From a virus, in IMG/VR virus record IMGVR_UViG_3300027899_000015, positions 1 through 56,832 of that record: a DNA stretch of 56,832 nucleotides, one strand, 5' to 3'. The position numbers were made by a program, and so were the translations under genes. This document shows, in pieces, positions 19,717-44,745 of the stretch; the first letter of the stretch is position 1, and every line of letters starts with the position of its first letter. The notes below the pieces were generated by a model that was given only the letters and a program-made list of their open reading frames with translations, searched no databases and was not told the origin of the DNA.

Positions 19717-21702
19717 TTATTTAAATATATCTTGTAATTGTTTTATTGTGTCAGTAGTTGATGTGTGATGTATTCCAATACCACCTGCATCTTTCCATCT
19801 TTGAATATTATCTGCTCTATCGTCTATTAATATAGCGTTTGGTTTTGCAAATTGTTGTTTTTGATCAGCTGGTCTTAATATAAGTTTAGTACCAGGTAGA
19901 TTTCTTTTTACCCAAACAAACTTACCTATTTTAGATGATTCATCTCTTGAGGGTGCTGATAATAATTCTGGATTGTATTTTTGGATATAACTCCATAATT
20001 GTTTTCCATCAGGCATCCATTTTAGTTTAATCCAAAATGCAGCACCCATTTTATGGATTGGAGCCCAAAATTCTTTAGGATCAGTGCTAAAACTAGCGTC
20101 TGTACCTGTTAATTCTTTATATCCTTTATCAAAATCAACTAATACACCATCCATATCACAATATATCTTATATTGTTCTTGTTTATCTTCATTTAATGTC
20201 TCAAATATTTCAGGATGATATTCACCAAATTTTCTTAACAAAATACCAGCAGCAGCATTTGCTTCATTTTCAACAGGTGAACCTGTAGCTCCATCACCCA
20301 TTCCTAGTTTTTTAATTTCATCTTGTTTACGATGAACTAATTCATGAGCTAGTGTTCTTAAAATATCAGCTGCTAATCTTGGACCTTTAACAACAAGTAA
20401 TTTGCCTGTTTCTGGATTATAAGAGCCTAATGAATGCATATTTCGAGCTAACTCTTCATCATCAGTGAATTCTATTTCGGGTATATTATTTAACTCAAGT
20501 GCTTTAACGGCAAACTCAATAAAATCATCTAATACATTACCGCTACCTGTTCCAACTATTGTTTCTTCTAAACCTGCTTTACTTAGTTTAGAATAATATT
20601 TTGGATCTTCACCTAAATGAGCTAGTGCTATTTTTTTAGCTGCTTCTTCATCAGTGGTATGTTCTTTTTTTTCTGTCTCAATTCCTTTCTTTAATTGTTC
20701 AGGATCAACATCTTTTTCATCTACTGTAGGAACATCAAGTTGAAGTTCAGTTAATGATTTTTTCCACCACCCTATAGTGAATAAATCTTCTTCAACATTA
20801 ACAGGTATATTATGTTTAGTTAAATATTTAAGTACTTGCTCACGTTGTGTTGAGCTATCTCCTAAATTAGGAATTAACATACGTCTTTCCTGTCCATCAA
20901 ATGCATATTGAGAGTATTCAAATGGTATTAACAATGTGTTAAGAAAATTTTCTATTTTTGGAGTTAATTTATAAGGTATTCTTATAATCAACTGACCATC
21001 TTTTTGATTTTCTTGAAGTTGATCTAAATTTAAAACAGGAATACCTAATATATTAAGTATATCATCAAAATCACCTTTTTGAATTACTACATCAGGAAAA
21101 CAACCTTTAAGTAATTCAATATTATTTAAATATTCATTTTTAGCTTTAGAATACTCAGTTGAATTTGTGTCAGATATAGATCTTAAAGTTAATACTGATT
21201 GTTTTATTTTGTCTATTGTTTCACGAACTTGAGTACCAGATAATCTTTTATTTTGTGATACTACTTTTTCATCAATAGCTAAAGGCATCACTCTTGTACT
21301 AAATGCTTTTTGTAATGAAGCAAAATATTCTTGGTCTTCAACTTCTTCTTTAGCACCAGCTACATATGCTATTAATTCTAAATCATTATCCATTCTAGAG
21401 AAAATATCTTTAATTGGAGAAGCATTTTTAGATACTTCAACAGATACTTTAGCCATAGGAGAGGCAGCTAGATATAAATCCCAAATGCGCTTACTCATAC
21501 TCACTGTTATACCATCACGTTCTTTTTGTCCAATTAATACTATAACTTTAGTAATATATGGTCTTGAAGCTAAATCTTTCATAGCTTCATAGTGTCCTTC
21601 ATGTGGTGGTTTAAAACCCCCTGGGTAGAAACAAATAGCAGGTGGAGTTGAACTTTCACCTTCTTCGTTTAATTCACTTAATATTGTATTTAAATCAATC
21701 AT
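19717..21702 (-). CDS. Nucleotidyltransferase - metallopeptidase - HAD phosphatase fusion, 661 residues
   Basis: Leader-like start MIDLNTILSELNEEGES. Residues 20-165 form a nucleotidyltransferase of the cytidylyltransferase/NMN adenylyltransferase type: CFYPGGFKPPHEGHYEAM (HxGH at 34-37) and a C-terminal SGTQVRETI in place of ISxTxxR. Residues 230-380 are a mixed linker including DEEAAKKIALAHLGEDP. Residues 390-495 form a zinc-peptidase-like domain with LAHELVHRK (HExxH at 453-457) and VENEANA (E478 or E480 as third ligand). Residues 510-661 form a HAD-fold nucleotidase with CDMDGVLVDFD (D516, D518) and ILIDDRADN (626-632), like 5'(3')-deoxyribonucleotidases. The combination is unusual. It overlaps a P-loop kinase gene by 4 bases. 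Confidence 0.85.
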   Translation of the reverse strand: MIDLNTILSELNEEGESSTPPAICFYPGGFKPPHEGHYEAMKDLASRPYITKVIVLIGQKERDGITVSMSKRIWDLYLAASPMAKVSVEVSKNASPIKDIFSRMDNDLELIAYVAGAKEEVEDQEYFASLQKAFSTRVMPLAIDEKVVSQNKRLSGTQVRETIDKIKQSVLTLRSISDTNSTEYSKAKNEYLNNIELLKGCFPDVVIQKGDFDDILNILGIPVLNLDQLQENQKDGQLIIRIPYKLTPKIENFLNTLLIPFEYSQYAFDGQERRMLIPNLGDSSTQREQVLKYLTKHNIPVNVEEDLFTIGWWKKSLTELQLDVPTVDEKDVDPEQLKKGIETEKKEHTTDEEAAKKIALAHLGEDPKYYSKLSKAGLEETIVGTGSGNVLDDFIEFAVKALELNNIPEIEFTDDEELARNMHSLGSYNPETGKLLVVKGPRLAADILRTLAHELVHRKQDEIKKLGMGDGATGSPVENEANAAAGILLRKFGEYHPEIFETLNEDKQEQYKIYCDMDGVLVDFDKGYKELTGTDASFSTDPKEFWAPIHKMGAAFWIKLKWMPDGKQLWSYIQKYNPELLSAPSRDESSKIGKFVWVKRNLPGTKLILRPADQKQQFAKPNAILIDDRADNIQRWKDAGGIGIHHTSTTDTIKQLQDIFK

Positions 21703-22424
21703 TTAATAAATTCTTTTACTTTAGCAACAGCAACAGATGCTGGTGTAAATTTTGGTTTTTGTTTCAGATGTGATTTAATATCTCTGTTGAGTTTTTCAAC
21801 ATCTGCTTTTGTTTTAGCTTGTTCTTCAGGTGTTTTTGGTTTGCCTTTTGCTTTTGATGTGTCAAAAAATCTACGTTTTATTTCATTTTCATCAAAATCA
21901 GTTTCAGCATCTTTAGGATCATTATTAATGATAACTAAATTATCACCAAATGCCTGTTGATATGTTTCAATACTGTCATTAATATCTCTCCATGTTCTTA
22001 AAACAATACTAGGCATCAATGAACGTTCTCTATTAGCATTACGTTCAAGTGATGTTATGGGAGATACATAAATCATAATCATCATAGTCTCATATCCTAA
22101 CGCTTCTAGTTCTTCTTTCTTTTTGAGAAGTGGTCTAGAAGCCGCTCCAGTACCGTCAATAATAACATCGTTAAGATTAGATAATGCATTTATATATTTT
22201 TCTTTTGTTGATTTTTGAGCCTGTCCCATTAATTTAGCTGCTTGAGATAACTGTTCAGGATCAAAATCCCTTTGCTTCATACCTAATCCAGATGCTTTTA
22301 ATAATTCTTCATAAGTATCATCAACATTTATTATATGAAATTTTGATAATGGCAAAGATTTAGCAATAAATGACTTACCAGCACCAGCAGGGCCGGCTAA
22401 AAATATTGCTTGTGGTGTACTCAT
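21699..22424 (-). CDS. P-loop kinase of the zeta-toxin/polynucleotide-kinase type, 241 residues
   Basis: Walker A is AGPAGAGKS (residues 10-18). INVDDTYEELL near residue 33 gives the acidic substrate-side motif, and DVIIDGTGAASRPLLKKK near residue 88 matches the Walker-B-like region followed by the Arg of zeta-toxin and polynucleotide 5'-kinase folds. RNANRERSL is a plausible lid. The last 55 residues are Lys-rich (KAKGKPKTPEEQAKTKAD). It may phosphorylate a nucleotide or a nucleic-acid end; being translationally coupled to a nucleotidyltransferase/HAD protein, the pair could act in nucleotide or end processing. The substrate is not readable. A variant late-type motif lies 6 bases upstream. 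Confidence 0.8.
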   Translation of the reverse strand: MSTPQAIFLAGPAGAGKSFIAKSLPLSKFHIINVDDTYEELLKASGLGMKQRDFDPEQLSQAAKLMGQAQKSTKEKYINALSNLNDVIIDGTGAASRPLLKKKEELEALGYETMMIMIYVSPITSLERNANRERSLMPSIVLRTWRDINDSIETYQQAFGDNLVIINNDPKDAETDFDENEIKRRFFDTSKAKGKPKTPEEQAKTKADVEKLNRDIKSHLKQKPKFTPASVAVAKVKEFIK

Positions 22425-22438: not shown

Positions 22439-22921
22439 TTAATTATCTTTCCTTGGGCGCCCACGTTTACCGCCTGTCTTAACGTATACAATTGATTTTT
22501 TCTGTGTTGGGTCCATTTTTGGTCGACCACGTTTACCACCAGTTTTAACATAAACTGTAACCTCTTTTTTAAGTGATGGGTCCATTTTTGGCCTACCACG
22601 TTTACCTGTACCTGTACTTGTACGTATTTTTTCAGCTTTAGCTTTACGTTCAAAATATCTAGGATGAACAATAAGTGAATCAAGAAAAAACGCGCGTCTA
22701 GCTCCACCTTCATCTACACATTCATATCCACCACCTTTCCATCCTGGTGTGCCATCTTGATGTGTACGAACATAATAAAACTTACCACCATTATCATTTT
22801 CATAATAAGTAGCTGGTAATACTTCAATGCCTGATGTAAAATTTAGATATTCTTGTTCATTTTCTTCTACCACATAGGCTTTACGTGGATAGATAGATGC
22901 TTCTACTTCGATTATTCTCAT
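22439..22921 (-). CDS. Triple AT-hook DNA-binding protein, 160 residues
   Basis: The C-terminal third carries three AT-hook cores, KRGRP at residues 107-111, 130-134 and 152-156, each followed by Lys/Met/Asp-Pro and spaced 22-23 residues apart by a conserved linker (VYVKTGG). AT-hooks bind the minor groove of AT-rich DNA, which fits this AT-rich genome. The N-terminal 95 residues are a beta-rich domain of unknown family with VLPATYYENDNGGKFYYV and TPGWKGGGYECVD. It has its own early-type promoter, so it may act early, for example as a nucleoid or transcription protein. The hook repeats are also direct repeats in the DNA. Confidence 0.85.
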   Translation of the reverse strand: MRIIEVEASIYPRKAYVVEENEQEYLNFTSGIEVLPATYYENDNGGKFYYVRTHQDGTPGWKGGGYECVDEGGARRAFFLDSLIVHPRYFERKAKAEKIRTSTGTGKRGRPKMDPSLKKEVTVYVKTGGKRGRPKMDPTQKKSIVYVKTGGKRGRPRKDN

Positions 22922-23479: not shown

Positions 23480-26440
23480 CTAAAAATTATACCTGATTCC
23501 TAATTGCGCTTGCCAATTTGAATTAACCACATCAACTGAATAGGGTAATTGAGTTGGTTGTTTAAATGTAAATGTTTCACCAGATGCTTTAGTTAGTCCT
23601 ACTGATGATGTAGAATTAAATGTGTTAGATATAAAATATATTTTACCACTATTGATATTAAATATATCAGCAGTTAATTGTAAATGTTTACCTATGTTTT
23701 GGATTAATTTAAAATCCATTGTTGTTGACCATGGTGTTCTACCACCATTACGTTCTGTAAATTGACCCTTTCTACTAGTTAAATATTTATTATTATTTAC
23801 AAAATCCATAAAATCTTGTGCTTGATTTAAATCTAAAATATATTTAGATGCTTCATTTAAATCTTTAAAGATATAAACTAAACCAGCGGCTTGTGGATTA
23901 TTTTGTAATGTTCCATTAACTAATCCCCATGTGAATGGTACTCCACTTTGTGAGTTTATAACTACACCAAATTGTGTTTTCTTTATTTTATAAATAAATT
24001 GAGATATAATTCTATGTCTAATATCAAAGTTTGAATATGCTAATTTAGGATCATTTGGAGTTAGAGATTGATTTAGCTGCCAGTTACTTTCCATTGAATT
24101 GCGGATACCATTTGTGATGTCTTTAGAAACACCATAAGTGTAGGCAGCGTAAACATCTAATCCCCATTTATATTTTTTATTAATTGATGTTGTTAATTGA
24201 TATCTATATCCTTTATCAGTATTAGATAATAAGTAAGCATTTGATAAATTTGAATTTACCTTAACACCACTATATATAGGCATTTGATTTTGAGTATCAA
24301 AGCTATAATATGTTGGGTTATCAGTTACAATATTAATTTGCTGGAATTTAAGATCTGTAAGTACATCTGTGTAAATACCTTCAATTGTTAATTTATAGCC
24401 ATTAATTGTTTTATCAATTGCTAAATTACTTCTCCATATTTTAGGCATTTTAAAACCATTATCAAGTAAATCTACTTGTACTAGATTTTTCTGTCCATTA
24501 TTAAAGGCAAATGTTTTAGAACCATCTGTAATTGGATCACCATTATTTACTAAATCTTTTCTATTGTTTAAATCAAATGAACCAAATCCAATGCCATCAT
24601 TATAATAAGCATATCCTAACCAAGCAAATGGAATACGACCTACAAACACACCCGAACCACCTCTAAATGTCCATGAATTTGATTTATATGTAAAACCTAA
24701 TCTTGGAGATACATTTAAATTATTAAAATAATCATTAGTATATTTAGTTGGTGCTTGGACATTAATTGATGGTTTGTTAGGTAAATCTGTATAGTCAAAC
24801 CTTATACCAGGAGATAATTTTAATTTACCAAATGTAATTTCATCTTGTAAATAACTACTTAATAAATTTATGTTAAAATTAGCATACGGGTTATTAAAAA
24901 TGTGGTCTCTATCATTATTATCAAAGCTATAAAATCCTCTTACTCGGTTTACTTTACCTGTTAAATAATCAGCTAATGATTTGTAAGAAATTCTACCATT
25001 CCAACTATTAACAAACCCATATCCAATATTGTAGAACTCATTATGTGTACCTAATAGGAATGAATGATTACCAATTGAAAAGTTAAAATTATCAGTAAAT
25101 TCAAATGTATTTTGTTTTAAATTAAATACAGTAGCTTCTCTTTCATTACCTATGAATATTGTTCCTCCATTATAAGCAATCTCTGTTTGTGGAAATGATA
25201 CTCTTTCACTTAATGGAGTTCTATAATCGTGAATATTTGTATAGCCTAAAATTAATGAATTTGAAGATTTGTGAAATTGAGATTTAAGTTCTAATACAGA
25301 TGAATTTTGGTTGCTGGTTTGTTTAAAATCCATTGAACCAAATCTGAAATTAGCTGCATCACGTTCTAAGTTAGTAGCACTAGAAAACACTGTGTTATTA
25401 CGAAGTGTTAGCTGATTTTTAGAATTTATATTCCAATCTAAACGGTTGAATAGTTTTTTAGAATCAGAATAAATACTATATGATTGATAATCACCAATAT
25501 TATAGTTATATTTTGTTTTAGTAAAATCAGTTATAACTTTAGCTATACTATCATTAATTAAACCATTTGAATTTGCACCATATAAAATAGGATCAATACG
25601 ATGAGTTGCTTCCTCTGATGTAAAGAAAAATAATTTGTCTTTTATAATTGGAAATCCGATTCTAAATCCACCTTGAATATCTTTAATATTATGTAAATCT
25701 CTCCCAAATGTATAAATAGATCCTTGTACTTTATTTGTTCCGCTTCTTGTGATAGCATTAATCGATCCACCTAAAAAGTTACCAATTTTAACATCAAATG
25801 GAGCAACATATACTTGAATATCTTTAATTGCATCTGCTGATATAGGAGACGTTCTTGTAGATGAACCAGGCATACCTGATGTCCCAGCTTGTCCTCCTAA
25901 TGATGGACTGAATCCAATTGCATCATTATTAATTGTGCCATCAATAGTAACGTTATTGTATCTAAAATTTGTTCCAGCGATTGAGTTATTGATTGATTGA
26001 GGAACTAATTTTGTAAAGTCAGTGATTGACCTGTTTAGTGATGGAGTTGCTTTTAATTTATCTTCATTAATTAATAAACCAGAAGCATTTTTAATAGCAT
26101 TCTTATTAATAACAACTGTTACTGTTTGTAATTGTTTATTATCTTGTTCTAATTTAACATCTAAATCATTATTACCTAAAGTAAAATAGATTTCTGTTTT
26201 TTCATATGGTTTATAACCAACAGAAGTAACCTTAATAATATAAGGACCACCCACGTTTGCATTATAAACATGAAAAAAACCGCTACCATCAGCAGCGGTT
26301 TTATATTTTGTACTTGTTGGAGTATAAATTAATTCAATACTAGAGTTTGCTTCTGTTTTTCCATTAACTGTTGATGTTGTAATTTGAGAAAACGAAACTA
26401 AAGAAATAAGCGTAAATAATGATAACAATAATTTTTTCAT
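23480..26440 (-). CDS. TonB-dependent outer-membrane receptor (Oar-like), full length
   Basis: 986 residues with all expected parts. Signal peptide MKKLLLSLFTLISLVSFSQ ends in the Bacteroidetes-typical SFSQ. Residues 24-108 form a carboxypeptidase-regulatory-like beta domain (DGSGFFHVYNANVGGPYIIK, VTSVGYKPYEK). Residues about 115-245 are a plug domain with NNVTIDGTINNDAIGFS and ISADAIKDIQVYVAPFDVKI, then GNFLGGSINAITRSGTN. The remaining 740 residues read as a beta barrel ending in WQAQLGIRYNF with terminal Phe for Bam recognition. No frameshift is seen. It would import a ligand across the host outer membrane using TonB. It is embedded in phage replication genes on the same strand, with no mobile element at its borders, so it is a phage-carried host-type gene. 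Confidence 0.93.
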   Translation of the reverse strand: MKKLLLSLFTLISLVSFSQITTSTVNGKTEANSSIELIYTPTSTKYKTAADGSGFFHVYNANVGGPYIIKVTSVGYKPYEKTEIYFTLGNNDLDVKLEQDNKQLQTVTVVINKNAIKNASGLLINEDKLKATPSLNRSITDFTKLVPQSINNSIAGTNFRYNNVTIDGTINNDAIGFSPSLGGQAGTSGMPGSSTRTSPISADAIKDIQVYVAPFDVKIGNFLGGSINAITRSGTNKVQGSIYTFGRDLHNIKDIQGGFRIGFPIIKDKLFFFTSEEATHRIDPILYGANSNGLINDSIAKVITDFTKTKYNYNIGDYQSYSIYSDSKKLFNRLDWNINSKNQLTLRNNTVFSSATNLERDAANFRFGSMDFKQTSNQNSSVLELKSQFHKSSNSLILGYTNIHDYRTPLSERVSFPQTEIAYNGGTIFIGNEREATVFNLKQNTFEFTDNFNFSIGNHSFLLGTHNEFYNIGYGFVNSWNGRISYKSLADYLTGKVNRVRGFYSFDNNDRDHIFNNPYANFNINLLSSYLQDEITFGKLKLSPGIRFDYTDLPNKPSINVQAPTKYTNDYFNNLNVSPRLGFTYKSNSWTFRGGSGVFVGRIPFAWLGYAYYNDGIGFGSFDLNNRKDLVNNGDPITDGSKTFAFNNGQKNLVQVDLLDNGFKMPKIWRSNLAIDKTINGYKLTIEGIYTDVLTDLKFQQINIVTDNPTYYSFDTQNQMPIYSGVKVNSNLSNAYLLSNTDKGYRYQLTTSINKKYKWGLDVYAAYTYGVSKDITNGIRNSMESNWQLNQSLTPNDPKLAYSNFDIRHRIISQFIYKIKKTQFGVVINSQSGVPFTWGLVNGTLQNNPQAAGLVYIFKDLNEASKYILDLNQAQDFMDFVNNNKYLTSRKGQFTERNGGRTPWSTTMDFKLIQNIGKHLQLTADIFNINSGKIYFISNTFNSTSSVGLTKASGETFTFKQPTQLPYSVDVVNSNWQAQLGIRYNF

Positions 26441-26479: not shown

Positions 26480-27265
26480 TTACTCAGTTATCTTAATACT
26501 AATAGGTAATGATTCAGTCATAGGCTTGAAATTTGGATTTTCAAGTTTATATATTTTATATATATTCATGAACATTTCAAAATTAGCATCAATATTACTT
26601 ATATGTTTTAATTCCCATCCTTTACCTTGTATTTTATCTCCTTTACCTTCACTACGTGTTGAAGCTTTAAGCCATAGAATACCTGTTTCTTCAATTTTAG
26701 CATCATGAGTTTCATCCCACGCTTTAGCGTAGGCGGCTAATTGTAAATTATGTGATGTGTGAAGTGAATTGGATGTTTTAATATCTAATAACCATAATTT
26801 ACCATCTATTTTACAAATTATATCTGTTGTACCAGCGTACTTATGCTCATCTGAGAATACATGATATTCAGTTGCTACTAATTCTGGTTTATGTGTATTC
26901 CAAAAATCAGCAAATTTAAGAATCATTTTCCATGTATCTAAACTATATAGAGCTTTTCCATATTCATCTAACCATTGGATTTCTTCTCCATTTAAAAAAG
27001 CATCAATAGCGTTATGTACTTGAGTACCTTCTGCTGCTGCTTTAGACGCAATAATATCACTATTATGTCCTACGTCCTTAAGCCAATTATGAAAAAATTG
27101 ATTTTTAGGAAAGAAATTTAATACTGATGTTACAGATGGATAATATTCTTCTCCACGTCTGTAAAATCTACTATCTAAAACATTTACTTGCCTATCTCCC
27201 TCATTGTACTCTACAATGCGTTTGATTTTTGGGTCTTTAATGATGTTGACGTTTCTATCAATCAT
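26480..27265 (-). CDS. PD-(D/E)XK exonuclease (RecB/Cas4-like), 261 residues
   Basis: A single RecB-like nuclease domain. The ordered motifs are GTQVHNAID (H84), TEYHVF (E133), YAGTTDIICKIDG (D148), WLLDIKTS (D161, K163) and LQLAAYAKAW (Q175, Y179). These give the metal-binding D-D-K core plus the QxxxY motif of the RecB/Cas4/lambda-exonuclease-like group. It probably processes DNA ends during replication and recombination. It overlaps the primase gene by 4 bases, so the two are coupled. No Fe-S cluster cysteines are visible, so it is not Cas4 itself. Length is usual for stand-alone phage members. Confidence 0.88.
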   Translation of the reverse strand: MIDRNVNIIKDPKIKRIVEYNEGDRQVNVLDSRFYRRGEEYYPSVTSVLNFFPKNQFFHNWLKDVGHNSDIIASKAAAEGTQVHNAIDAFLNGEEIQWLDEYGKALYSLDTWKMILKFADFWNTHKPELVATEYHVFSDEHKYAGTTDIICKIDGKLWLLDIKTSNSLHTSHNLQLAAYAKAWDETHDAKIEETGILWLKASTRSEGKGDKIQGKGWELKHISNIDANFEMFMNIYKIYKLENPNFKPMTESLPISIKITE

Positions 27266-28227: not shown

Positions 28228-28680
28228 CTAAGCAAAATCTTTACGGAAGTATTTTCCTGCTATATTATCATTGTAACTATTATCAGTAAATAATACATTG
28301 TGTACTATTTGTTCTTCTAGTTCAAAAAATGTAAGTTGTTTTTTATTTTTAGCAAATTTACGTATAACACGTTCAAATTTATCCTCACCTAATGCTTTAA
28401 CATCTGCGAGTAATTCTTTAGATGAACCATAATATGTTTTCCATCCACTATCTACTTTATCAACTCGAGTTGTAGATCGACGTCCTGGTCCTGATTGTTC
28501 AGCAATTTCTTTTTTAGTGAGTTTTTTCTTTTTATTATGAATAAATGCTTTTTTACCTATATAAAATTTGCCTGTTTCTAGATTAGTAATTATATAAACA
28601 AAACCATAATACTCATTAATTTGCTCTTCAGGAAATACTTCTAGACTTCCATCATCAAGATGCCATAACCAATTATTCAT
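28228..28680 (-). CDS. GIY-YIG domain protein (SegE-like), 150 residues
   Basis: GFVYIITN (residues 26-33) and GKFYIGKK (37-44) form the GIY-YIG core with the first motif changed to FVYI. YYGSSKELLADVKALGEDKF follows near residue 95, and ELEEQIVHNVLF further on supplies the metal-binding Glu. GRRSTTRVDK near residue 82 carries basic DNA-contacting residues. This pattern matches the small phage GIY-YIG proteins often annotated as SegE-like putative endonucleases. It might be a homing-type or a DNA-processing nuclease. It stands between the tail genes and the primase, with close spacing, and interrupts no recognisable gene. Confidence 0.85.
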   Translation of the reverse strand: MNNWLWHLDDGSLEVFPEEQINEYYGFVYIITNLETGKFYIGKKAFIHNKKKKLTKKEIAEQSGPGRRSTTRVDKVDSGWKTYYGSSKELLADVKALGEDKFERVIRKFAKNKKQLTFFELEEQIVHNVLFTDNSYNDNIAGKYFRKDFA

Positions 28681-28694
28681 AAACTTATTTTATT

Positions 28695-29726
28695 TTAACA
28701 TATTTCTATTATATTATAGTAAGTAACACCTACATTTATATAATACGTTGTATCAGCATTCGGAATATTTATATATGATTCAAGTTTTCCACAATATCCT
28801 GTAAATGTATTGGTGTCTGATTTTGCTACATAAAATACAGCATCGTCTTCTTTAGCATAAGTATCTCTTCTTACAGCTGCTATTTCTATTGATAATCCTA
28901 CAGGCACATCTATTGAAGCTCCTGCTGCTGTTGAAGTAGTTGTTAAAGTATATGGACTTCCATTTTGTAAAACCCAATCTCCTCCTTCAATTCTATAATA
29001 TAACATAAGAGTATTGGAGGTATTTGTATTATAATGTCCTTTTATTCTAAGATTAACAGTATAAGTTGTAGGAGAAGATGTAGATGGAGTAAGTGTTATA
29101 CTTGGAGTTAATGATGGTGTGGGTGATGGAGTATAAGATGGAGTTGCTGAGAGTCCAAAACTCACTGGTGGAGTATTACTAGGAGAAATACTTGGAGTAG
29201 TACTTGGTGTTTTACTAATACTTGGTGTTTTACTAATACTTGGTGTTCTACTAATTGAAGCTGGTATACTTGGAGTAACAGAGATAGAAGGCGTACGGCT
29301 AGGGGATGGAGTAAAATAAGGTTTTTCAACCCATTGTGTATCCCATTTTACCAAAAATGTCATATCAGTATTATCTGATATAGGCATAGGAGCCGCCATT
29401 TTAGCTATCGCTAATAAATCTTGAGCATCATTATATAATCCAACTGTTGTAACATATGGAGAAAATTCAGATCCAGATATAGAACCAGTAGCAAAATCTT
29501 TTAATATTCCAAAATTTCGAGAACCAGAAATATTCCAAAATATACTTCCACTATCTGAACTACTATAAGGTAATAAAGCAGCTTGACTTCCTGATAATAA
29601 AGATGGGTTATAACTTAAATTGAATTCATAATCTTTTATAGTACATTTTACAAAATTTTCATAAACAACGTGACTGTTTTGAAATTTTATTTTTGTAATA
29701 TTTGTATTTAATGATCTTAAATTCAT
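28695..29726 (-). CDS. Virion protein with TPS repeat linker and C-terminal domain, 343 residues
   Basis: Residues 1-135 end with SPYVTTVGLYNDAQDLLAIA, which is clearly related to the C-terminal YITTVGLYNNSGDLLAVA of the 356-residue protein at 33.5-34.6 kb. So this protein seems to carry a copy of that terminal domain. Residues 138-219 are a Thr/Pro/Ser repeat (TPSISKTPSISKTPS). Residues 220-343 are a beta domain of unknown family with VNLRIKGHYNTNTSNTLMLY. Predicted tail- or baseplate-surface protein, with the repeat as a stalk. It ends the repeat-bearing cluster. Confidence 0.75.
   Translation of the reverse strand: MNLRSLNTNITKIKFQNSHVVYENFVKCTIKDYEFNLSYNPSLLSGSQAALLPYSSSDSGSIFWNISGSRNFGILKDFATGSISGSEFSPYVTTVGLYNDAQDLLAIAKMAAPMPISDNTDMTFLVKWDTQWVEKPYFTPSPSRTPSISVTPSIPASISRTPSISKTPSISKTPSTTPSISPSNTPPVSFGLSATPSYTPSPTPSLTPSITLTPSTSSPTTYTVNLRIKGHYNTNTSNTLMLYYRIEGGDWVLQNGSPYTLTTTSTAAGASIDVPVGLSIEIAAVRRDTYAKEDDAVFYVAKSDTNTFTGYCGKLESYINIPNADTTYYINVGVTYYNIIEIC
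29069..29315 (-). repeat. TPS-repeat array in the 343-residue gene
   Basis: In-frame degenerate tandem repeats, coding for TPSIS(R/K)-type hexads and related words. The DNA copies are imperfect (cttggtgttttactaat-type words), with mixed codon use. Confidence 0.85.
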
Positions 29727-29740
29727 TTTTTTATTTTAAA

Positions 29741-30367
29741 TTATATTGTACATAGATAACTACAATCATTATATCCTACACTTGCTACAGCTGGAAGGGT
29801 TGAATATGGTCCTGAAGAAGTAGTACTAGAAACATAAATTAATGTGTATGTTTGATTATTTACTAAATAGAACTTATTAACAGTTAAAGCATCAGTAGTT
29901 TTAACAAATATTGTGTCAATATAATTACAAGTTCCAATTATACCACATTCATATGTATCAATTATATAATAATTGTAACCAGAAGTAACTGAAGGTGTTA
30001 TACTAGGTGTAGCACTAATTGATTTAGTTATACTAGGTGTAATACTAGGTGTAGCACTAATTGTTCTAGTAACACTAGGAGTTATACTAGGTGTAACACT
30101 GGTTGTTCTAGTAATACTTGGTGTTTTTGTAATACTAGGTGTTACACTAGGTGTTCTAGTGATACTAACTGTTCTACTAGGTGTTCTAGTAATACTAGGT
30201 GTAGCTGAAGGGGATAATGAAGGTAATGGACAGTATGTATAGTCTAATACAGGTGATATATAATCAGGATCACTTATACTATTAGTTTTAGTCACACCTG
30301 TAGCCATATTATTATCTAAATAATATTCTTCTAAATTTCCATATGCTTTATATCCTGTATTGGGCAT
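29741..30367 (-). CDS. Repeat-bearing virion protein, 208 residues
   Basis: A 50-residue N-terminal part (MPNTGYKAYGNLEEYYLDNN) leads into about 80 residues of Thr-Pro-Ser repeats (ATPSITRTPSRTVSITRTPS and onward), then a C-terminal domain of about 75 residues with Cys pairs (IDTYECGIIGTCNYIDT, ending YNDCSYLC). The same layout of short anchor, TPS stalk and beta-rich head occurs in the two neighbouring genes. Likely a tail or baseplate-peripheral protein. A late-type motif lies 7 bases upstream, so this gene may start its own transcript. Confidence 0.75.
   Translation of the reverse strand: MPNTGYKAYGNLEEYYLDNNMATGVTKTNSISDPDYISPVLDYTYCPLPSLSPSATPSITRTPSRTVSITRTPSVTPSITKTPSITRTTSVTPSITPSVTRTISATPSITPSITKSISATPSITPSVTSGYNYYIIDTYECGIIGTCNYIDTIFVKTTDALTVNKFYLVNNQTYTLIYVSSTTSSGPYSTLPAVASVGYNDCSYLCTI
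29975..30220 (-). repeat. TPS-repeat array in the 208-residue gene
   Basis: In-frame repeats coding TPSIT(R/P/K)-type units. The plus strand shows many near-copies of ctaggtgttatactaggtgt-like words, differing at third positions. Confidence 0.85.
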
Positions 30368-30374
30368 GATTTAA

Positions 30375-30382
30375 TATAAATA
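30375..30382 (-). promoter_or_regulatory. Late-type motif ATATTTATA
   Basis: Exact motif in the 18-base gap between the 1029-residue gene and the 208-residue gene, 7 bases before the latter. Confidence 0.45.
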
Positions 30383-30385
30383 TTA

Positions 30386-33300
30386 TTAAAGTTGAGTACA
30401 GTTTGTACTAGTACAATCTGGAACTGACGCGTATAATGTTGTTATAGGATATCCTGTACCTACATACTGATAGAAAGAATCTAAAGTATAACAATCAGAT
30501 GTTGTGTTAGTTGATGTTCTATAAGTACCTAATGTTTTTGTTGATGTTAAAGTTAATATAACTGAAGAACCATCTAAACATTTTGTAGCGTTATATTGAT
30601 AATAAGTTAACGCAGCCCCAGATACTGATGGTGTTACACTAGGTGTGGTACTAACAGGACGTGTTGTACTAACACTAGGTGTAATACTAACAGGACGTGT
30701 TGTACTAACACTAGGTGTTACACTAGGTGTGGTACTAACAGGACGTGTTGTACTAACACTAGGTGTAATACTAACAGGACGTGTTGTACTAACACTAGGT
30801 GTAATACTAACAGGACGTGTTCTACTAGGTGTTAAACTTACACTAGGGACAGTACAAGATACTGGGTTTTGTAATTTTCCAGCAGCACTAGCATCAGTAT
30901 TCCAATAAGTAGTTCCATTAGAATAAAATCCATTAGGTGCTGCTATAGTACACGCTGAGTTAGTATATATGAAAGTTCCTGTTTGTAATGTACTACCTAC
31001 AGGCATAAAATATACATTTGTATTGACTGTTGGATAATTTGAACACGCTGTATATCCACTAACTGTATCATAAGCTAAAGATACTGGATTAGTTCCTGAT
31101 GTGCTAGGTGTTATACTTGGTGTTGTACTAATACTAGGTGTTTTAGTAATACTAGGTGTCATACTAACACTAGGACTAGGAGCGGTACAAACAGAATCAA
31201 CATATATTCTAGCATTACTACTTGAATCTACACCTCCACTTCCAAGCCATTGGTAAGTACTTGTAAATGCTACATTATAGCTTCCAGTTTGAGAAAGAGT
31301 AATAAATGATCCACTAGTAGCAGGTGTTAAACCTTTAAGAGAATATTGATTTACTGTATATGTTCCTTGTCCTTGATTTCCAGTGACAGTCATTTCAAAT
31401 GATCCTGTTTGGTTGGTGATATTATAATTAGTTAATTGATAATATAATTTAGCACCTTCAAATCCTGAGGCTAAGGTTATATTTCCAACAGCTGTACTTG
31501 TTTGAGTATTGTCTCCATTAACTGGATGTAATTGAATATCAGTAGCTGTTATTCTTAAATCAGTACTATAACTACCTGCTTCAACTATAAAATCACTAAA
31601 TGTTATACATTGATTAATTCCAGCAGGAGATTTACTAGGCGTTACACTAGGTGTTCTAGTGATACTAGGTGTAAGAGTTAATGATACAGAAGGAGGAGGT
31701 GTACAAAGTACATCTATTTCATAATTATCATTTCCTGGATTATTTGGATTTTGTGGCGCTACGTCTACTATTAATTTATAAGTACTACTTGCATCATAAG
31801 TAAAAGTTAAAGACCCATCAGGACTATATGGACATTGGTTACTAGAGTATGGAGCCATACACGTTGGGTATGTTCCACTTTGCCATGGATATCCAGTATT
31901 TGGATAAGATTGATCAGATCCAACCCATAATGAATCTTGTATTATTGTTGATGATCCTCCTGTTGTTTTTTGGATAGAAAATCTATTAGGTCTATCTTCA
32001 GCTCTATAAGTAACTTGTATTGAGCTTCCATTAGCGGTAGATGATAAATCTAAAACATAATAATCAGTAGAATATCCTGTAGTAAGAGTATCTTTACTAA
32101 ATGCTGTTGTTGAACAATTTAAACTAATTAAATATGAAGCACTAGGTGTAATACTTGGTGTAATACTAATACTAGCTGTTCTAGTAATACTAGGTGTAAT
32201 ACTAGGTGTAGTACTGATGCTAGCTGTTCTTGTAATGCTTGGAGTTGATGTAATACTAGGTGTTAATGTGATACTAGGTGTTATACTAGGCGTTTGAGTA
32301 ATACTTGGAGTAGTACTAATACTTGGTGTTCTAGTAATACTTGGAGTAGTACTAATACTTGGAGTTAAGGTAACACTTGGTGTAGTACTAATACTTGGGG
32401 TTGTGCTAGGTGTTTGAGTAATACTTGGAGTAATACTAATACTTGGTGTTCTAGTAACACTAGGTGTTCTACTTGATGTTAATGTAATACTTGGTGTGGC
32501 TGTTTCACTAGGCGTTAAGGTAACGCTAGGTGTAGTACTAGGCGTTCTAGTAATACTTGGTGTAGCTGTTTCACTAGGTGTTAATGTAACGCTAGGTGTA
32601 GTACTAACACTAGGTGTCATACTAGGTGTCACACTAGGTGTTTGAGTAATACTTGGAGTAGCACTAACACTAGCTGTTCTTGTAATACTTGGTGTAGCAC
32701 TAACTGATTTACTTAAAGTGACACTAGGTGTAGTACTAGGTGTTTTAGTAACACTAGGTGTAGCACTAGGTGTTAATGTAATACTAGGAGTAAGAGATAC
32801 AGCGCTGGCTAAACAATAAGGATCGATTCCTCTCCATCCTTTTAGTCTTACACTATCAGGTATAATAGTTAATACAGCTACATTTTGTTCATAAAATACA
32901 TTACCAACATAAGAATCTTGAGTCAATAATGTTCCTATAGAAGAACTTACATCGCTTCCACTATAAAGTAAGTTATAATTTCCATCATCATATATTTTAG
33001 ACTCTGATATTCCACTATTGAAATATATTTCAAATGTAGTTGGAAGAATTTTTTCACTAGTTAAATTTCTAGGTACATTTAATACATAAATAATACTTCC
33101 TGTATCTGTTGGAAAATATTTATATGTGTTTGTATTACCTAATTCAACATGACCTCTATAATAAGAAGATGTTGATAAAGTACCATCATTATAGATAGTA
33201 TTTCTTTTCTCAATATATTGTAATAATGAGCTTGTAGATAAAAATTTCGGATAATAAGTTAAATTAGTAGAATCATAAACTAATCTATCATATTGACCAT

Positions 33301-33475
33301 TAGTATAATATTCAGTAGTAGGATCAAAAATAGATCCACTATGATTAATACCAATATTAGTTACAATTCTGTTTTCAGCAAATGAAGAGGAGGTGATTTC
33401 CCAACTTTTATTTGCAGTATATGGTACTACAAAAGTATCAGGTACACTAAGTCTTTTAAAAGTATTTGCCGACAT
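30386..33475 (-). CDS. Large tail-surface protein with several TPS-repeat stalks, 1029 residues
   Basis: Residues 1-225 form an N-terminal domain likely to anchor in the virion (MSANTFKRLSVPDTFVVPYT). Residues 226-450 are a long Thr/Pro/Ser repeat. Two beta-rich globular segments follow, separated by short TPS linkers near residues 600-618 and 768-795. A second, more regular repeat (PSVSTTRPVSITPSVS) lies at about 878-952, and a Cys-containing C-terminal domain of about 75 residues closes the protein. There is no enzyme motif. The alternation of stalk and bead suggests an extended fibre-like molecule that positions binding domains away from the particle, probably for host-surface contact. Exact function is unknown. 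Confidence 0.8.
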   Translation of the reverse strand: MSANTFKRLSVPDTFVVPYTANKSWEITSSSFAENRIVTNIGINHSGSIFDPTTEYYTNGQYDRLVYDSTNLTYYPKFLSTSSLLQYIEKRNTIYNDGTLSTSSYYRGHVELGNTNTYKYFPTDTGSIIYVLNVPRNLTSEKILPTTFEIYFNSGISESKIYDDGNYNLLYSGSDVSSSIGTLLTQDSYVGNVFYEQNVAVLTIIPDSVRLKGWRGIDPYCLASAVSLTPSITLTPSATPSVTKTPSTTPSVTLSKSVSATPSITRTASVSATPSITQTPSVTPSMTPSVSTTPSVTLTPSETATPSITRTPSTTPSVTLTPSETATPSITLTSSRTPSVTRTPSISITPSITQTPSTTPSISTTPSVTLTPSISTTPSITRTPSISTTPSITQTPSITPSITLTPSITSTPSITRTASISTTPSITPSITRTASISITPSITPSASYLISLNCSTTAFSKDTLTTGYSTDYYVLDLSSTANGSSIQVTYRAEDRPNRFSIQKTTGGSSTIIQDSLWVGSDQSYPNTGYPWQSGTYPTCMAPYSSNQCPYSPDGSLTFTYDASSTYKLIVDVAPQNPNNPGNDNYEIDVLCTPPPSVSLTLTPSITRTPSVTPSKSPAGINQCITFSDFIVEAGSYSTDLRITATDIQLHPVNGDNTQTSTAVGNITLASGFEGAKLYYQLTNYNITNQTGSFEMTVTGNQGQGTYTVNQYSLKGLTPATSGSFITLSQTGSYNVAFTSTYQWLGSGGVDSSSNARIYVDSVCTAPSPSVSMTPSITKTPSISTTPSITPSTSGTNPVSLAYDTVSGYTACSNYPTVNTNVYFMPVGSTLQTGTFIYTNSACTIAAPNGFYSNGTTYWNTDASAAGKLQNPVSCTVPSVSLTPSRTRPVSITPSVSTTRPVSITPSVSTTRPVSTTPSVTPSVSTTRPVSITPSVSTTRPVSTTPSVTPSVSGAALTYYQYNATKCLDGSSVILTLTSTKTLGTYRTSTNTTSDCYTLDSFYQYVGTGYPITTLYASVPDCTSTNCTQL
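30650..30841 (-). repeat. Near-identical 36-base coding repeats
   Basis: A 36-base unit beginning actaacaggacgtgttgt occurs at 30650, 30686, 30734, 30770 and, with a changed end, at 30806. Four spacings are 36 except one of 48. It codes for the PSVSTTRPVSIT motif. Because copies are nearly identical, this stretch can expand or shrink by recombination. Confidence 0.9.
32140..32806 (-). repeat. Long degenerate TPS-repeat array
   Basis: About 660 bases of in-frame repeats coding TPS(I/V)T(R/P/L)-type words. Copies differ mainly in third codon positions and in word order, so the array is old or actively reshuffled. One reading frame is kept open throughout. Confidence 0.88.
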
Positions 33476-33485
33476 ATGCGTAACA

Positions 33486-34556
33486 TTAGAAATCTAGTTT
33501 AACTCTTAATAATAATTCTTTAGTAAAATCTTTAACTAATGGTTTATTTAATTTAGCTACAGCTAATAAATCACCACTGTTATTATATAAACCAACTGTT
33601 GTAATATAAGTTTGTGGATTATATATTAATTGAGTATATAATAAATTACCATTTGAATCAATTACTGTTGGATTTGTTGTATAATTAAATTCTGCATTTT
33701 TTACACGAGTGAAAAAATAACGAGAAGATAAAGTTTCATAGCTTTGCAAACTAAATGTTGGTTGTAATTTAATCATATCAAACACCATACGATTATTGAT
33801 GTTGTATGTATTACCTCCTGCTGTGAAGAAAGCATCAGCTTGAGATGAACTAAATTCATTAAATATAGCACCAATCCCACCTAATGGACCTACTGGTAAA
33901 GCTAAAGCTCTTGGGTTTAATATTATTAAACCTTCATCAGGTAATAATAAACCATAGCTACCACTAACAGTGTAAGCAGAAGATGAAGGATATGTTGTTT
34001 GAGTACTTGAATTATATGATCCAGTTAATAACTGATAAGCACGAGTTGAACCAAGATATGTAGATACTGATGTTACTGTTGAGTCATCAACTAAACCAAT
34101 AGAGTTACTACCACTTGATATTTTTAAGAAGAAAGAACCTTGATTAAAAGATTCTTTAAAACGAGATCTATTAATAGATAATACTATAATATCTTTTGAC
34201 GCGTAATTTGCTCCACCAAATTGAAATGATGAATTTTCATCACCATATATTAATGATCTAAATTGACCATAAACATCTCTAGTTGGTGTTTTATCAGGTA
34301 CTAAAGCATTGAAATAAGATGAACCTGAACCACTTACGTGTCCATAAGCTATTGTAAATTGAGATTCAAGAGATTGAGTTGCTGCTACATCTCCTTGAAA
34401 TACATTAAGGAAAAAAGTACCAGCTGGGTTGTTTAGTTCTTGTGATGACCAACTGTAAAAAGTAGTTAATGTGGTTAGATTATTACTCCACATTGGTGAC
34501 ACTATAGCATCTGAACTAAGTACCTGATCTTCCGTTTGATAAGCTCCAAAAGACAT
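33486..34556 (-). CDS. Tail/baseplate structural protein, 356 residues
   Basis: Beta-rich protein beginning MSFGAYQTEDQVLSSDAIVS with SGSGSSYFNALVPDKTPTRD and a Thr/Ser-rich middle. Its last 50 residues (TTVGLYNNSGDLLAVAKLN, then KPLVKDFTKELLLRVKLDF) reappear as a variant within the 343-residue gene. No catalytic motif. Its place between the 222-residue structural protein and the repeat-bearing proteins suggests an attachment or adaptor role. I do not recognise a named T4 counterpart. Confidence 0.75.
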   Translation of the reverse strand: MSFGAYQTEDQVLSSDAIVSPMWSNNLTTLTTFYSWSSQELNNPAGTFFLNVFQGDVAATQSLESQFTIAYGHVSGSGSSYFNALVPDKTPTRDVYGQFRSLIYGDENSSFQFGGANYASKDIIVLSINRSRFKESFNQGSFFLKISSGSNSIGLVDDSTVTSVSTYLGSTRAYQLLTGSYNSSTQTTYPSSSAYTVSGSYGLLLPDEGLIILNPRALALPVGPLGGIGAIFNEFSSSQADAFFTAGGNTYNINNRMVFDMIKLQPTFSLQSYETLSSRYFFTRVKNAEFNYTTNPTVIDSNGNLLYTQLIYNPQTYITTVGLYNNSGDLLAVAKLNKPLVKDFTKELLLRVKLDF

Positions 34557-42448: not shown

Positions 42449-44323
42449 TTAATAAGTTACTATGCGGCCATAAATATCTGTATCTGGGTATCTCACTTCA
42501 AAAATACATGGATCTATTGAAGGGTATATAACTCCTTGTTTTGTTGCGGCTTGAATATCATACCCATATGAAGAATAATTACCACTAGCTAAATTAATAA
42601 TATTAACGTTAATTACTGATTGGACTCCTTTAATAGCTCCTATTAGATTATATATATCCGAATATATTATTGGTTGGTTGATTTGCCATTTAGATATATC
42701 AAAATAATCTTTTAGAGCACTAATACAACTAGTTAATACATCTTGTGAGTTATAAGCTGGTAAAACTGATATGTCAAAATTTACTTTTATATTAACATAG
42801 TATGCATCCTTAATTAATACTGCATCACTCATCATTTTATTATATGATAAGTATGTTTTTAAATTTTGTTTAATTACATTAGAAGCTGTAGTTAATTTAC
42901 CATCAATATTAGTTGATAAAATATATACTGAAAGTGCTAATGGGTTATTATTTATAAAATTTTGTTTGTCTATATCATTAGCTACTAAATAATCTTGTGT
43001 TACATAAGCTTTACTTATATAACCAAATTTAGCAGGCATAGAAAGTGTTCTAACTAAATAATCAGCCTTAGTTACATTTCTATTTTGAGTTGGAAAATTA
43101 GCTAATGCTTGTAAACGAATTTGTTCTGTTGTTTCTCCAGGTCCACCTCCTGATGAAGGAGTATCATTATTAAATCTAACTGATCCTGATATTAAATTAA
43201 CAAGTGTAGTATTTAAATTATATGAATTTATTGTTGTAGGAACATTTACATTTAATCCAATATCGTCTGTTGGTAAATTTGCTTCAATACCTCCACCTAC
43301 TAAATAAGTTACGGTCAGAGTAGTATTTGAAGGTGCTATACCATATTCATTTGTATATTGAAAGTTAGATGGATCATAAGCCATATTTAATTTACTAATT
43401 CCATCTACTAAACCTAAACCAACATTATCAGGATTTGGAATAATAACTTCATCAGGTGATGAAGAAACACCACTACCAAATTCTAACATTAAATTATTAT
43501 CATCATCAAAACGAGTAGCAAAACGTCTTTGTACTTTTTTTACACGTAATAAAAAACGAGCACTATCATCATCATTATAATAATTAGGTTCGTTTGTTGG
43601 TATATTTAAAGATTCATCAAATATTGTATCTTGAGCTAAATAAGGAACTTCATACCATTGATTATTATCACTATCAACAACATCAATTACTTCAATAATA
43701 TTTGAATCATTAATTGTAACCACAGGAAACTGTTCAGGAATAGAAAAAGTAAAAGATGCAGTTTTCATTTGTCCTGATATAGCTTCTACTTGTTTTTTAA
43801 GTAGATAATATTGTGGATTAGAGGTATTAGTATAGTATTGATATATAGTAACATCTGTTGGGTCAAATGAAGATGAATGATGAAAATCAACTGAATCTTG
43901 AGTAACAAATGTTATGTTTGGTTTTGATATTGATTTAACAGTAGCATTTTTTTCAATTCTTAAAGCATATCTATAGTCTGGATTGTAATTAGGAAAACCA
44001 TCAGATGGTACTAATTGATAAGAGTTTAATGTTACTGATGATGCTGTTATTACTTTTGGTCTATATCCTAAAGCATAAGCTAAAGCTATAATGTTTTTTC
44101 TCTCTTGGGCATATAATAATAATGTCTCTTGTAATTGAGTATCAGTATAAAATGATAAAACATCACCTACATAAGCAGCCATTTCAATAAACATATTACC
44201 AGGAGCAGATGGACTGAAATCCATATAGCTGTTTTGGAAATAGGTTCTAGCATAATTAATTAAGTCTGACTTTAATGTGCTAAAGTCTTTATCGAAATAT
44301 TTTATATCGGGTGTATTTGCCAT
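42449..44323 (-). CDS. Baseplate wedge protein (T4 gp6 / J-like)
   Basis: Forms the inner ring of the contractile baseplate. The first 100 residues contain the typical PDIKYFDKDFSTLKSDLINY, then FSPSAPGNMFIEMAAYVGDV, SFYTDTQLQETLLLYAQERK and ALAYALGYRPK. The C-terminal half has TTEQIRLQALANFPTQNR and VTKADYLVRTLSMP, which belong to the gp6/baseplate_J family. Length (624) is close to T4 gp6 (660). It overlaps the gp25-like gene by one base and precedes the holin, giving the T4-like gp25-gp6 order. Confidence 0.93.
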   Translation of the reverse strand: MANTPDIKYFDKDFSTLKSDLINYARTYFQNSYMDFSPSAPGNMFIEMAAYVGDVLSFYTDTQLQETLLLYAQERKNIIALAYALGYRPKVITASSVTLNSYQLVPSDGFPNYNPDYRYALRIEKNATVKSISKPNITFVTQDSVDFHHSSSFDPTDVTIYQYYTNTSNPQYYLLKKQVEAISGQMKTASFTFSIPEQFPVVTINDSNIIEVIDVVDSDNNQWYEVPYLAQDTIFDESLNIPTNEPNYYNDDDSARFLLRVKKVQRRFATRFDDDNNLMLEFGSGVSSSPDEVIIPNPDNVGLGLVDGISKLNMAYDPSNFQYTNEYGIAPSNTTLTVTYLVGGGIEANLPTDDIGLNVNVPTTINSYNLNTTLVNLISGSVRFNNDTPSSGGGPGETTEQIRLQALANFPTQNRNVTKADYLVRTLSMPAKFGYISKAYVTQDYLVANDIDKQNFINNNPLALSVYILSTNIDGKLTTASNVIKQNLKTYLSYNKMMSDAVLIKDAYYVNIKVNFDISVLPAYNSQDVLTSCISALKDYFDISKWQINQPIIYSDIYNLIGAIKGVQSVINVNIINLASGNYSSYGYDIQAATKQGVIYPSIDPCIFEVRYPDTDIYGRIVTY

Positions 44324-44745
44324 TATTGTTTGGTTAAGTCATTTGTTGAAACATTTATAACTAAATTATCATCTTGATTATTTATAGAATAATCTAAAAC
44401 TATATTAACTGCATTTTCATCAGAAAATTTTTTAACTCCTATATTCTTAATAATAATATTAGGTACATAAGCGTATATTTCTTGCTCTAATCTAGCTGCT
44501 ACATTATCAAAATCTGTGTCTGGTTGGAAAAGAGATGCTCTTAAGTTTCCACCAAATGTAGGATTAAAAAGACGCTCACCTTTATCAGTTAATATATAAT
44601 TGATTAAATTTGATTTTACTTGGTCTTTAGTAGTGAATGTTTGATTAAAAACATTAGTACCATTATTAAATAAAACACTAATACCTATACCTCTAGGTTG
44701 TCCTACATCTTGAGGATTAAGTTTATATGTTGGTCTATTTAACAT
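44323..44745 (-). CDS. Baseplate wedge protein (T4 gp25-like)
   Basis: 140 residues, the usual size. It contains NLINYILTDKGERLFNPTFG followed by GNLRASLFQPDTD, the gp25/GPW core in which the RLFxPxFGxxLRxxLF motif bolts the inner baseplate to the sheath initiator. IEQEIYAYVPNI-type sequence follows. It overlaps genes on both sides by one base, indicating tight co-translation with the gp6-like wedge protein it binds in the assembled baseplate. Confidence 0.93.
   Translation of the reverse strand: MLNRPTYKLNPQDVGQPRGIGISVLFNNGTNVFNQTFTTKDQVKSNLINYILTDKGERLFNPTFGGNLRASLFQPDTDFDNVAARLEQEIYAYVPNIIIKNIGVKKFSDENAVNIVLDYSINNQDDNLVINVSTNDLTKQ

Follow-up and report, generated by a model that had tools for sequence, protein, structure and literature searches.

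Three adjoining genes in the uncultured virus record IMGVR_UViG_3300027899_000015 (56.8 kb; the window, that is, the whole stretch of 56,832 nucleotides analysed), designated A (1029 amino acids, aa), B (208 aa) and C (343 aa), probably occupy a hot spot of insertion and exchange next to the baseplate genes and would encode anchored, stalked, head-bearing candidate adhesins, the heads of which are exchanged at repeat arrays. All three follow a common plan, in which an N-terminal anchor leads into one or more Thr-Pro-Ser (TPS) arrays and then into one or more non-repetitive domains, with four arrays and four domains in A. The open reading frames (ORFs), together with tandem repeats picked up independently at the DNA level, confirm the initial annotation, which had described genes of these sizes as having an N-terminal part, repeat arrays and distinct C-terminal domains. 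The span given there, 29069-32806, does contain the arrays but leaves out the A anchor and the greater part of the C head; the real unit is 28695-33475, comprising C (28695-29726), B (29741-30367) and A (30386-33475), all on the minus strand.

Exchange of heads at the arrays

Scans with the anchors widened the set of relatives beyond the loci of P4, a conserved upstream protein of 356 aa (33486..34556, minus strand; homologs in 37 viral loci), and yielded 108 non-redundant anchor proteins; relatives are labelled here by locus or contig (L plus a number), and approximately 60 of them bear on head exchange. When orthologous genes with well-aligning anchors were compared in pairs, the heads were unrelated, as judged from a shuffle-based score, in 269/300 A pairs, 151/171 C pairs and 109/153 B pairs. 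Conservation of the heads in all relatives, named in the initial annotation as the outcome contrary to its proposal of a kit in which heads are swapped while the stalk is kept, is thus not observed; the anchors are conserved, the heads are mostly unrelated, and heads move between A and C genes. Indeed, the A anchors of L053 and L059 are 97% identical to that of L061, and the heads that follow are unrelated and differ in length as well as in sequence.

The same heads are found on genes that are not orthologous. The A head of L010 is 92% identical at the amino acid level to a domain within the C gene of L070, with 87% DNA identity over 376 bp that starts in the array, and yet the P4 tree places L010 (TPS lineage) and L070 (TPT lineage) in different clades, and their A anchors are each only 63-65% identical to that of the window. 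More divergent cases of an A head resembling a C head are L059 and L061 (57%), L078 and L043 (56%), and L052 and L113 (54%). A suspected B head on the A gene of L016 was rejected as a head swap, since this gene is in fact an A-B fusion from which the A stalk and head have been lost. The gene order is A-C-B in L009.

Alignment of the DNA of close pairs (L053/L061, L050/L052 and L049/L060) showed homology that spans P4 and the A anchor, ends in the array, and restarts at or just beside the stop codon; in L053/L061 there is 86% identity over 7.9 kb up to the A array and the restart is at the A stop codon. The same pattern of break and restart was seen for the C gene in L013/L051. Of the 412 pairs of A or C genes whose anchors could be aligned, 379 lose DNA homology before the head, the break lying in the first array in 258, before it in 119 and beyond it in 2, counts that describe a pattern and not independent trials, because gene pairs share ancestry. 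Among the rows listed, breaks before the array are mostly comparisons of TPS-type with TPT-type lineages. A collinear restart was found in 225 pairs, and in 139 of these it falls within 30 nucleotides (nt) of the stop codon. The comparison of related phages proposed in the initial annotation therefore did find exchange, with breaks mostly in the first array and restarts mostly at the stop codon.

The window arrays are 71% Thr, Ser and Pro. Across 89 arrays of the family the spacing from Pro to Pro is even in 94% of cases (42% in shuffled sequences, maximum 46%), because Ser or Thr occupies every other position: 89% of alternate positions, against 55% in shuffles, are Ser or Thr. Such a strict dipeptide register would suit an extended, polyproline-like stalk. 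Gly accounts for 0.4% of array residues, and the arrays consist of Ser/Thr-X dipeptides, so they are not the Gly-X-Y triplets of a collagen-like fibre. In five-residue composition, arrays of different genes in one genome are more alike (0.52) than orthologous arrays of different genomes (0.24), a value above all 500 label shuffles and about that of orthologs with 80-90% identical anchors. The simplest reading is that this likeness may reflect homogenisation by recombination. Within a genome, the longest exact DNA run common to arrays of different genes measures 9-39 nt, the sole exception being 68 nt in L083. Together, the 258 breaks inside the first array and the likeness of arrays within genomes support the earlier suggestion that the stalk might allow recombination between genes, and the comparisons show an exchange of heads for which the arrays appear to be the joint, as read from sequence.

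Origin of the locus and place of its products

The window contains T4-like portal and terminase genes and matches to baseplate wedge families (42449-44745), and its closest annotated relatives are Flavobacterium phage immuto and Microcystis phage Mel-JY01; the window phage is probably a T4-like myovirus with a host from the Bacteroidota. The A, B and C genes sit between baseplate and replication genes. Where contigs reach, the 61 distinct P4 proteins collected are followed in order by A to C, a SegE endonuclease and a primase. Twenty of these loci, among them those of immuto and of a 484-kb phage record, encode A and C as a single protein (AC) of ~285-415 aa with neither stalk nor head, whereas in the clade of the window A and C are apart, each with a stalk and head, and B is often in between. 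Because A and C thus correspond to the two halves of a single stalkless protein in distant relatives, the A, B and C genes would lie at a hot spot of insertion next to the baseplate genes. Sequence similarity links the C anchor to the C-terminus of P4 (E ~1e-6); no relation between A and P4 was shown. Another clade has a separate gene of 464-469 aa with SSSYAL (SSSYALSSSYALSSS) repeats between short A and C genes (L036, L037, L038, L041, L044 and L045), and two relatives have Thr-rich TTTS stalks after A.

In the P4 tree, for which only midpoint rooting was available, the stalkless fused form is found on the deep branches; six changes in total account for the labels, and two for the stalked TPS/TPT form. 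This suggests that the fused AC protein is ancestral and that insertion may have occurred more than once. The immuto AC homolog (immuto26A_166) follows a P4 homolog and closely precedes genes annotated as tail fibre and tail spike. Mel-JY01 (L149:690-9636) has several tandem genes with P4-like domains at their ends, some of them much extended at the N-terminus, and its AC-type protein carries in the A part a long insertion that, by eye, resembles a LamG domain. It would seem that the P4/AC family has been duplicated and decorated repeatedly.

A sequence of events compatible with these data can be proposed. A stalkless A+C protein following P4 would have been interrupted between A and C, giving an A-stalk-head gene and a C-stalk-head gene, with a B-stalk-head gene between them. 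The anchors would fix the proteins to the virion, the extended TPS arrays would keep small, β-rich heads off the particle, and the heads would bind host-surface ligands. Recombination would then replace head cassettes that run from the array to the stop codon, as the breakpoint pattern shows, with homology presumably provided on one side by the arrays and on the other by the conserved start of the next gene.

That A, B and C are virion surface proteins is plausible from the position of the genes, whereas their attachment to the virion, the extension of the stalks and receptor binding by the heads are inferred. An AlphaFold model of the B head is a confident small β domain (predicted local distance difference test, pLDDT, 86). 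Searched against a viral structure library, the model of the AC protein gave nine strong matches, one of which is annotated as a concanavalin A-like lectin, the others being unnamed or uncharacterised, and weaker matches to a laminin-G protein and baseplate wedge proteins. A sequence profile search of solved structures with the anchors gave no convincing relative and no homology to gp6, the T4 baseplate wedge protein, and a literature search for immuto virion proteins gave nothing usable.

Several observations weigh against the reading of the locus as a set of virion adhesins with exchanged heads. The AC model is of low confidence (pLDDT 63.6), so that the fold of the anchor is not securely identified; its best VIA match, T4 gp6 (Z 5.5, root-mean-square deviation 3.4, 94 residues), is within the range of chance, and its match to a phage baseplate wedge subunit is weak (Foldseek E 4e-4). 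Fold matches to the B head were uninformative (best Foldseek E 0.7, best VIA Z 3.6). The virion location of A, B and C therefore rests on gene position and a weak structural likeness. With gp6 the anchor model shares this weak resemblance, and the genes are near baseplate genes; gp6, however, has neither stalks nor heads. In addition, B heads belong mostly to two families and are more conserved, and less exchanged, than A and C heads, the gene pairs are phylogenetically non-independent, the likeness of arrays inside genomes could instead reflect shared selection, and the stalked relatives are all metagenomic contigs.

Alternative explanations and related systems

This last point, together with the repetitiveness of the arrays, raises the possibility that the head switches are assembly chimeras, in which short-read assemblers joined the wrong heads through similar arrays. 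This is very improbable, given that exact runs between arrays are as short as stated above, that shared heads differ by at least 8% in sequence and so are not copies of one molecule, and that the same architecture is recovered from different metagenomes over the region each contig holds (L010/L011/L012/L042 and L073/L074/L075), the A genes of L010 and L011 being 99.8% identical in DNA. Descent without exchange, with heads diverging by very fast point mutation in an arms race, would explain why, for most heads, no homolog is detectable in the orthologous genes of related phages. It would not account for near-identical or homologous heads on non-orthologous genes, for homology that restarts sharply at the stop codon, or for the length differences behind 97% identical anchors, and is accordingly held to be highly unlikely. 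A diversity-generating retroelement would call for a nearby reverse transcriptase and for a template/variable repeat with localised substitutions; no reverse transcriptase was found in the subset of window ORFs that was scanned, and variation between heads involves whole domains and not localised substitutions.

The high Ser, Thr and Pro content would also suit a mucin-like coat, glycosylated by the host or the phage and acting mainly in shielding or in interaction with mucus or extracellular polymeric substances, to which the heads would be secondary. In some relatives a GT2 glycosyltransferase gene does lie a few genes downstream, but the window, like many stalked relatives, has none at this position. 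The O-glycosylation motif of Bacteroidota, D-S/T-(A/I/L/V/M/T), is used on non-cytoplasmic proteins in the periplasm (PMC12871550). It occurs 0 times in 7391 array residues, the arrays being almost without Asp, and reading of the A, B and C sequences by eye revealed no evident N-terminal hydrophobic signal. These results count against the earlier idea that the stalk might be modified by the host O-glycosylation pathway, and in some relatives Thr replaces Ser in nearly all Pro-Ser units; a glycosylated coat is unlikely. The lack of evident signal peptides also argues against A, B and C being displayed on, or released from, the infected cell. An outer-membrane-type gene nearby would favour such a role; the location between baseplate and replication genes, the relation of the C anchor to the conserved P4 and the annotated tail fibre genes beside the immuto AC homolog speak against it, and we consider it quite unlikely.

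The proteins resemble modular phage fibres in having a conserved N-terminal anchor, a repetitive shaft and a variable C-terminal domain, and in the horizontal exchange of C-terminal domains with breakpoints at the repeats. One known counterpart is the immuto AC homolog, which likewise follows a P4 homolog but is fused, stalkless and headless, and is followed by conventional tail fibre and spike genes. We know of no three-gene set at a split baseplate-adjacent protein for the antireceptors of Streptococcus thermophilus phages. In some of those phages collagen-like repeats separate distinct antireceptor domains, and the variable host-range region, VR2, is independent of phage group, as described in a report citing Duplessis and Moineau 2001 (PMC5601072). 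The repeats there are Gly-X-Y and the host is Gram-positive, in contrast to the Ser/Thr-X dipeptide arrays described here. Collagen-like side tail fibres of Escherichia coli O157 prophages similarly have a repeat shaft and differing domain combinations attributed to recombination; their shaft, however, is a trimeric coiled-coil plus collagen, and movement of heads across non-orthologous neighbouring genes is not described in the available portion of that source (PMC3368898). In cryoconite phages, tail fibre or receptor-binding domains are recombined in nature between near-identical phage cores, although the variable modules are metagenomic islands, and the part of the report available does not name a repeat-array joint (PMC7468147).

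Exchange at the repetitive shaft of a modular fibre is therefore already known from collagen-like phage fibres (PMC5601072, PMC3368898). What is new here is the chemistry of the stalk, the split protein with its three-gene set, and the heads common to non-orthologous and unrelated anchors; no report of TPS-array phage stalks was found in the open literature, a search that left most subscription journals outside its coverage. The locus offers a sequence-level view, in uncultured phages, of a possible trade in binding heads, in which anchors and flanks stay constant and the arrays appear as the sites of crossover. It makes testable whether short, low-complexity DNA, with shared exact runs of mostly 9-39 nt, is sufficient to guide domain exchange. 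A TPS or TPT array beside baseplate genes could serve as a marker for candidate adhesion proteins that escape profile libraries, and the locus provides an example of a plain baseplate-neighbour protein split through acquired head-bearing genes.

Parts of the three genes, the wider head pool and neighbouring genes

The A anchor (residues 1-228, 32792..33475) is kept in relatives and has its homolog in the N-terminal half of the fused AC protein. It is followed by array 1 (residues 229-446, 32138..32791), with ~35 TPS/SPS units, and by inserted domain 1 (residues 447-601, 31673..32137), which is 41% identical over 106 aa to a domain on the TPS array protein of another contig, L164, from which the anchor is cut off. 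Short array 2 (residues 602-619, 31619..31672) leads to inserted domain 2 (residues 620-766, 31178..31618), which is without a relative among the array proteins compared, and short array 3 (residues 767-792, 31100..31177) to inserted domain 3 (residues 793-881, 30833..31099). The latter is 48-53% identical to domains of L169 and L203, which have an unrelated anchor family, and of L192, the anchor of which is cut off; the L169 and L192 proteins adjoin what looks, from its sequence, like a tail sheath gene. Array 4 (residues 882-951, 30623..30832) contains TTRPVSITPSV units, and for the C-terminal head (residues 952-1029 plus stop, 30386..30622) a relative was not found. An even longer A gene is present in L017, with 1728 aa and ~200 Pro-Ser/Thr units.

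In B, the anchor (residues 1-51, 30215..30367) and array (residues 52-127, 29987..30214) precede the predicted small β domain of the head (residues 128-208 plus stop, 29741..29986), which belongs to a family of 8 B heads and is recovered by a profile built without it (E 7e-9). Domains related to the B head are carried by an A gene of L015 and also by proteins with unrelated anchors. The C anchor (residues 1-138, 29313..29726) shows 66-83% identity in relatives and is homologous to the C-terminal half of the AC protein; it is followed by the array (residues 139-221, 29064..29312) and the head (residues 222-343 plus stop, 28695..29063), for which there was no relative in the phage collection or among the heads of the family. 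A domain of ~190 aa lies inside the C anchor itself in L017 (14906-16537), in addition to stalk and head. No likeness was detectable among the heads of the window. A resemblance of the A tip to the B head, suspected by eye, failed the profile test (hhalign probability 1.3%), and extension of the C-head family to the A head of L009 or to the window C head scored at or below shuffled decoys. Neither Pfam nor PHROGs assigned a significant function to A, B, C or P4; matches to PHROG 15511 lie in the low-complexity arrays and carry no functional name.

A search of viral contigs with an exact DNA pattern for TPS arrays picked out 76 stretches with 99 array-bearing ORFs, few of which have anchors related to A, B or C. 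Clustering of 198 domains together with the anchors (33 anchor clusters) gave 35 head families with at least two members, and 13 of these occur on at least two anchor families. Three of the six window domains have relatives in other array proteins, namely the B head and A domain 3, both on unrelated anchors, and A domain 1, on an anchor-truncated protein. Head families common to this locus and to unrelated array proteins indicate that heads circulate beyond the locus. Some of the other array proteins adjoin genes that, on inspection of the sequence and not by family search, look like tail sheath or baseplate genes, and PHROGs gave one match to a virion structural protein for ten anchors of other TPS proteins. 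As a tentative extension that we hold to be possible but not probable, Thr/Ser-Pro dipeptide arrays might be the universal recombination joint of a common gene pool, with heads sampled from any co-infecting phage and between a phage's own neighbouring genes; unrelated anchors from many lineages would then take the same heads because the array DNA is of the same kind. In two more distant relatives (L163:469-7471 and L206:4563-7252), TPS stalks are found on A and also on additional genes that take the position of B and have another short anchor, with a GPF/GPY motif; the C gene that comes next is intact.

The conserved downstream flank is the SegE/GIY-YIG endonuclease gene (28228..28680, minus strand; Pfam PF19835), which lies 3′ of the anchors in most relatives that reach so far. 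A second variable site is located between an exonuclease gene (26480-27265) and a conserved gene of 160 aa (22439-22921). In the window it holds, at 23480-26440 on the minus strand, an Oar-like outer-membrane protein of 986 aa, of the TonB-dependent receptor type and with a likely signal peptide. Relatives have here another TonB-type receptor (28% identical), a Plug + OMP_b-brl_3 receptor, a Porin_O_P porin, a lipoprotein-like protein, GT2 glycosyltransferases or nothing (L023:6404-9682, L132:9952-12195, L108:9636-10811, L089:10136-11299, L093, L101 and L104). The site is a candidate for receptor alteration or superinfection exclusion. Between receptor-type and nucleotidase-type genes there is also a Zeta-toxin/AAA-type kinase-like protein (21699-22424, minus strand; Pfam PF06414, E 3e-8).

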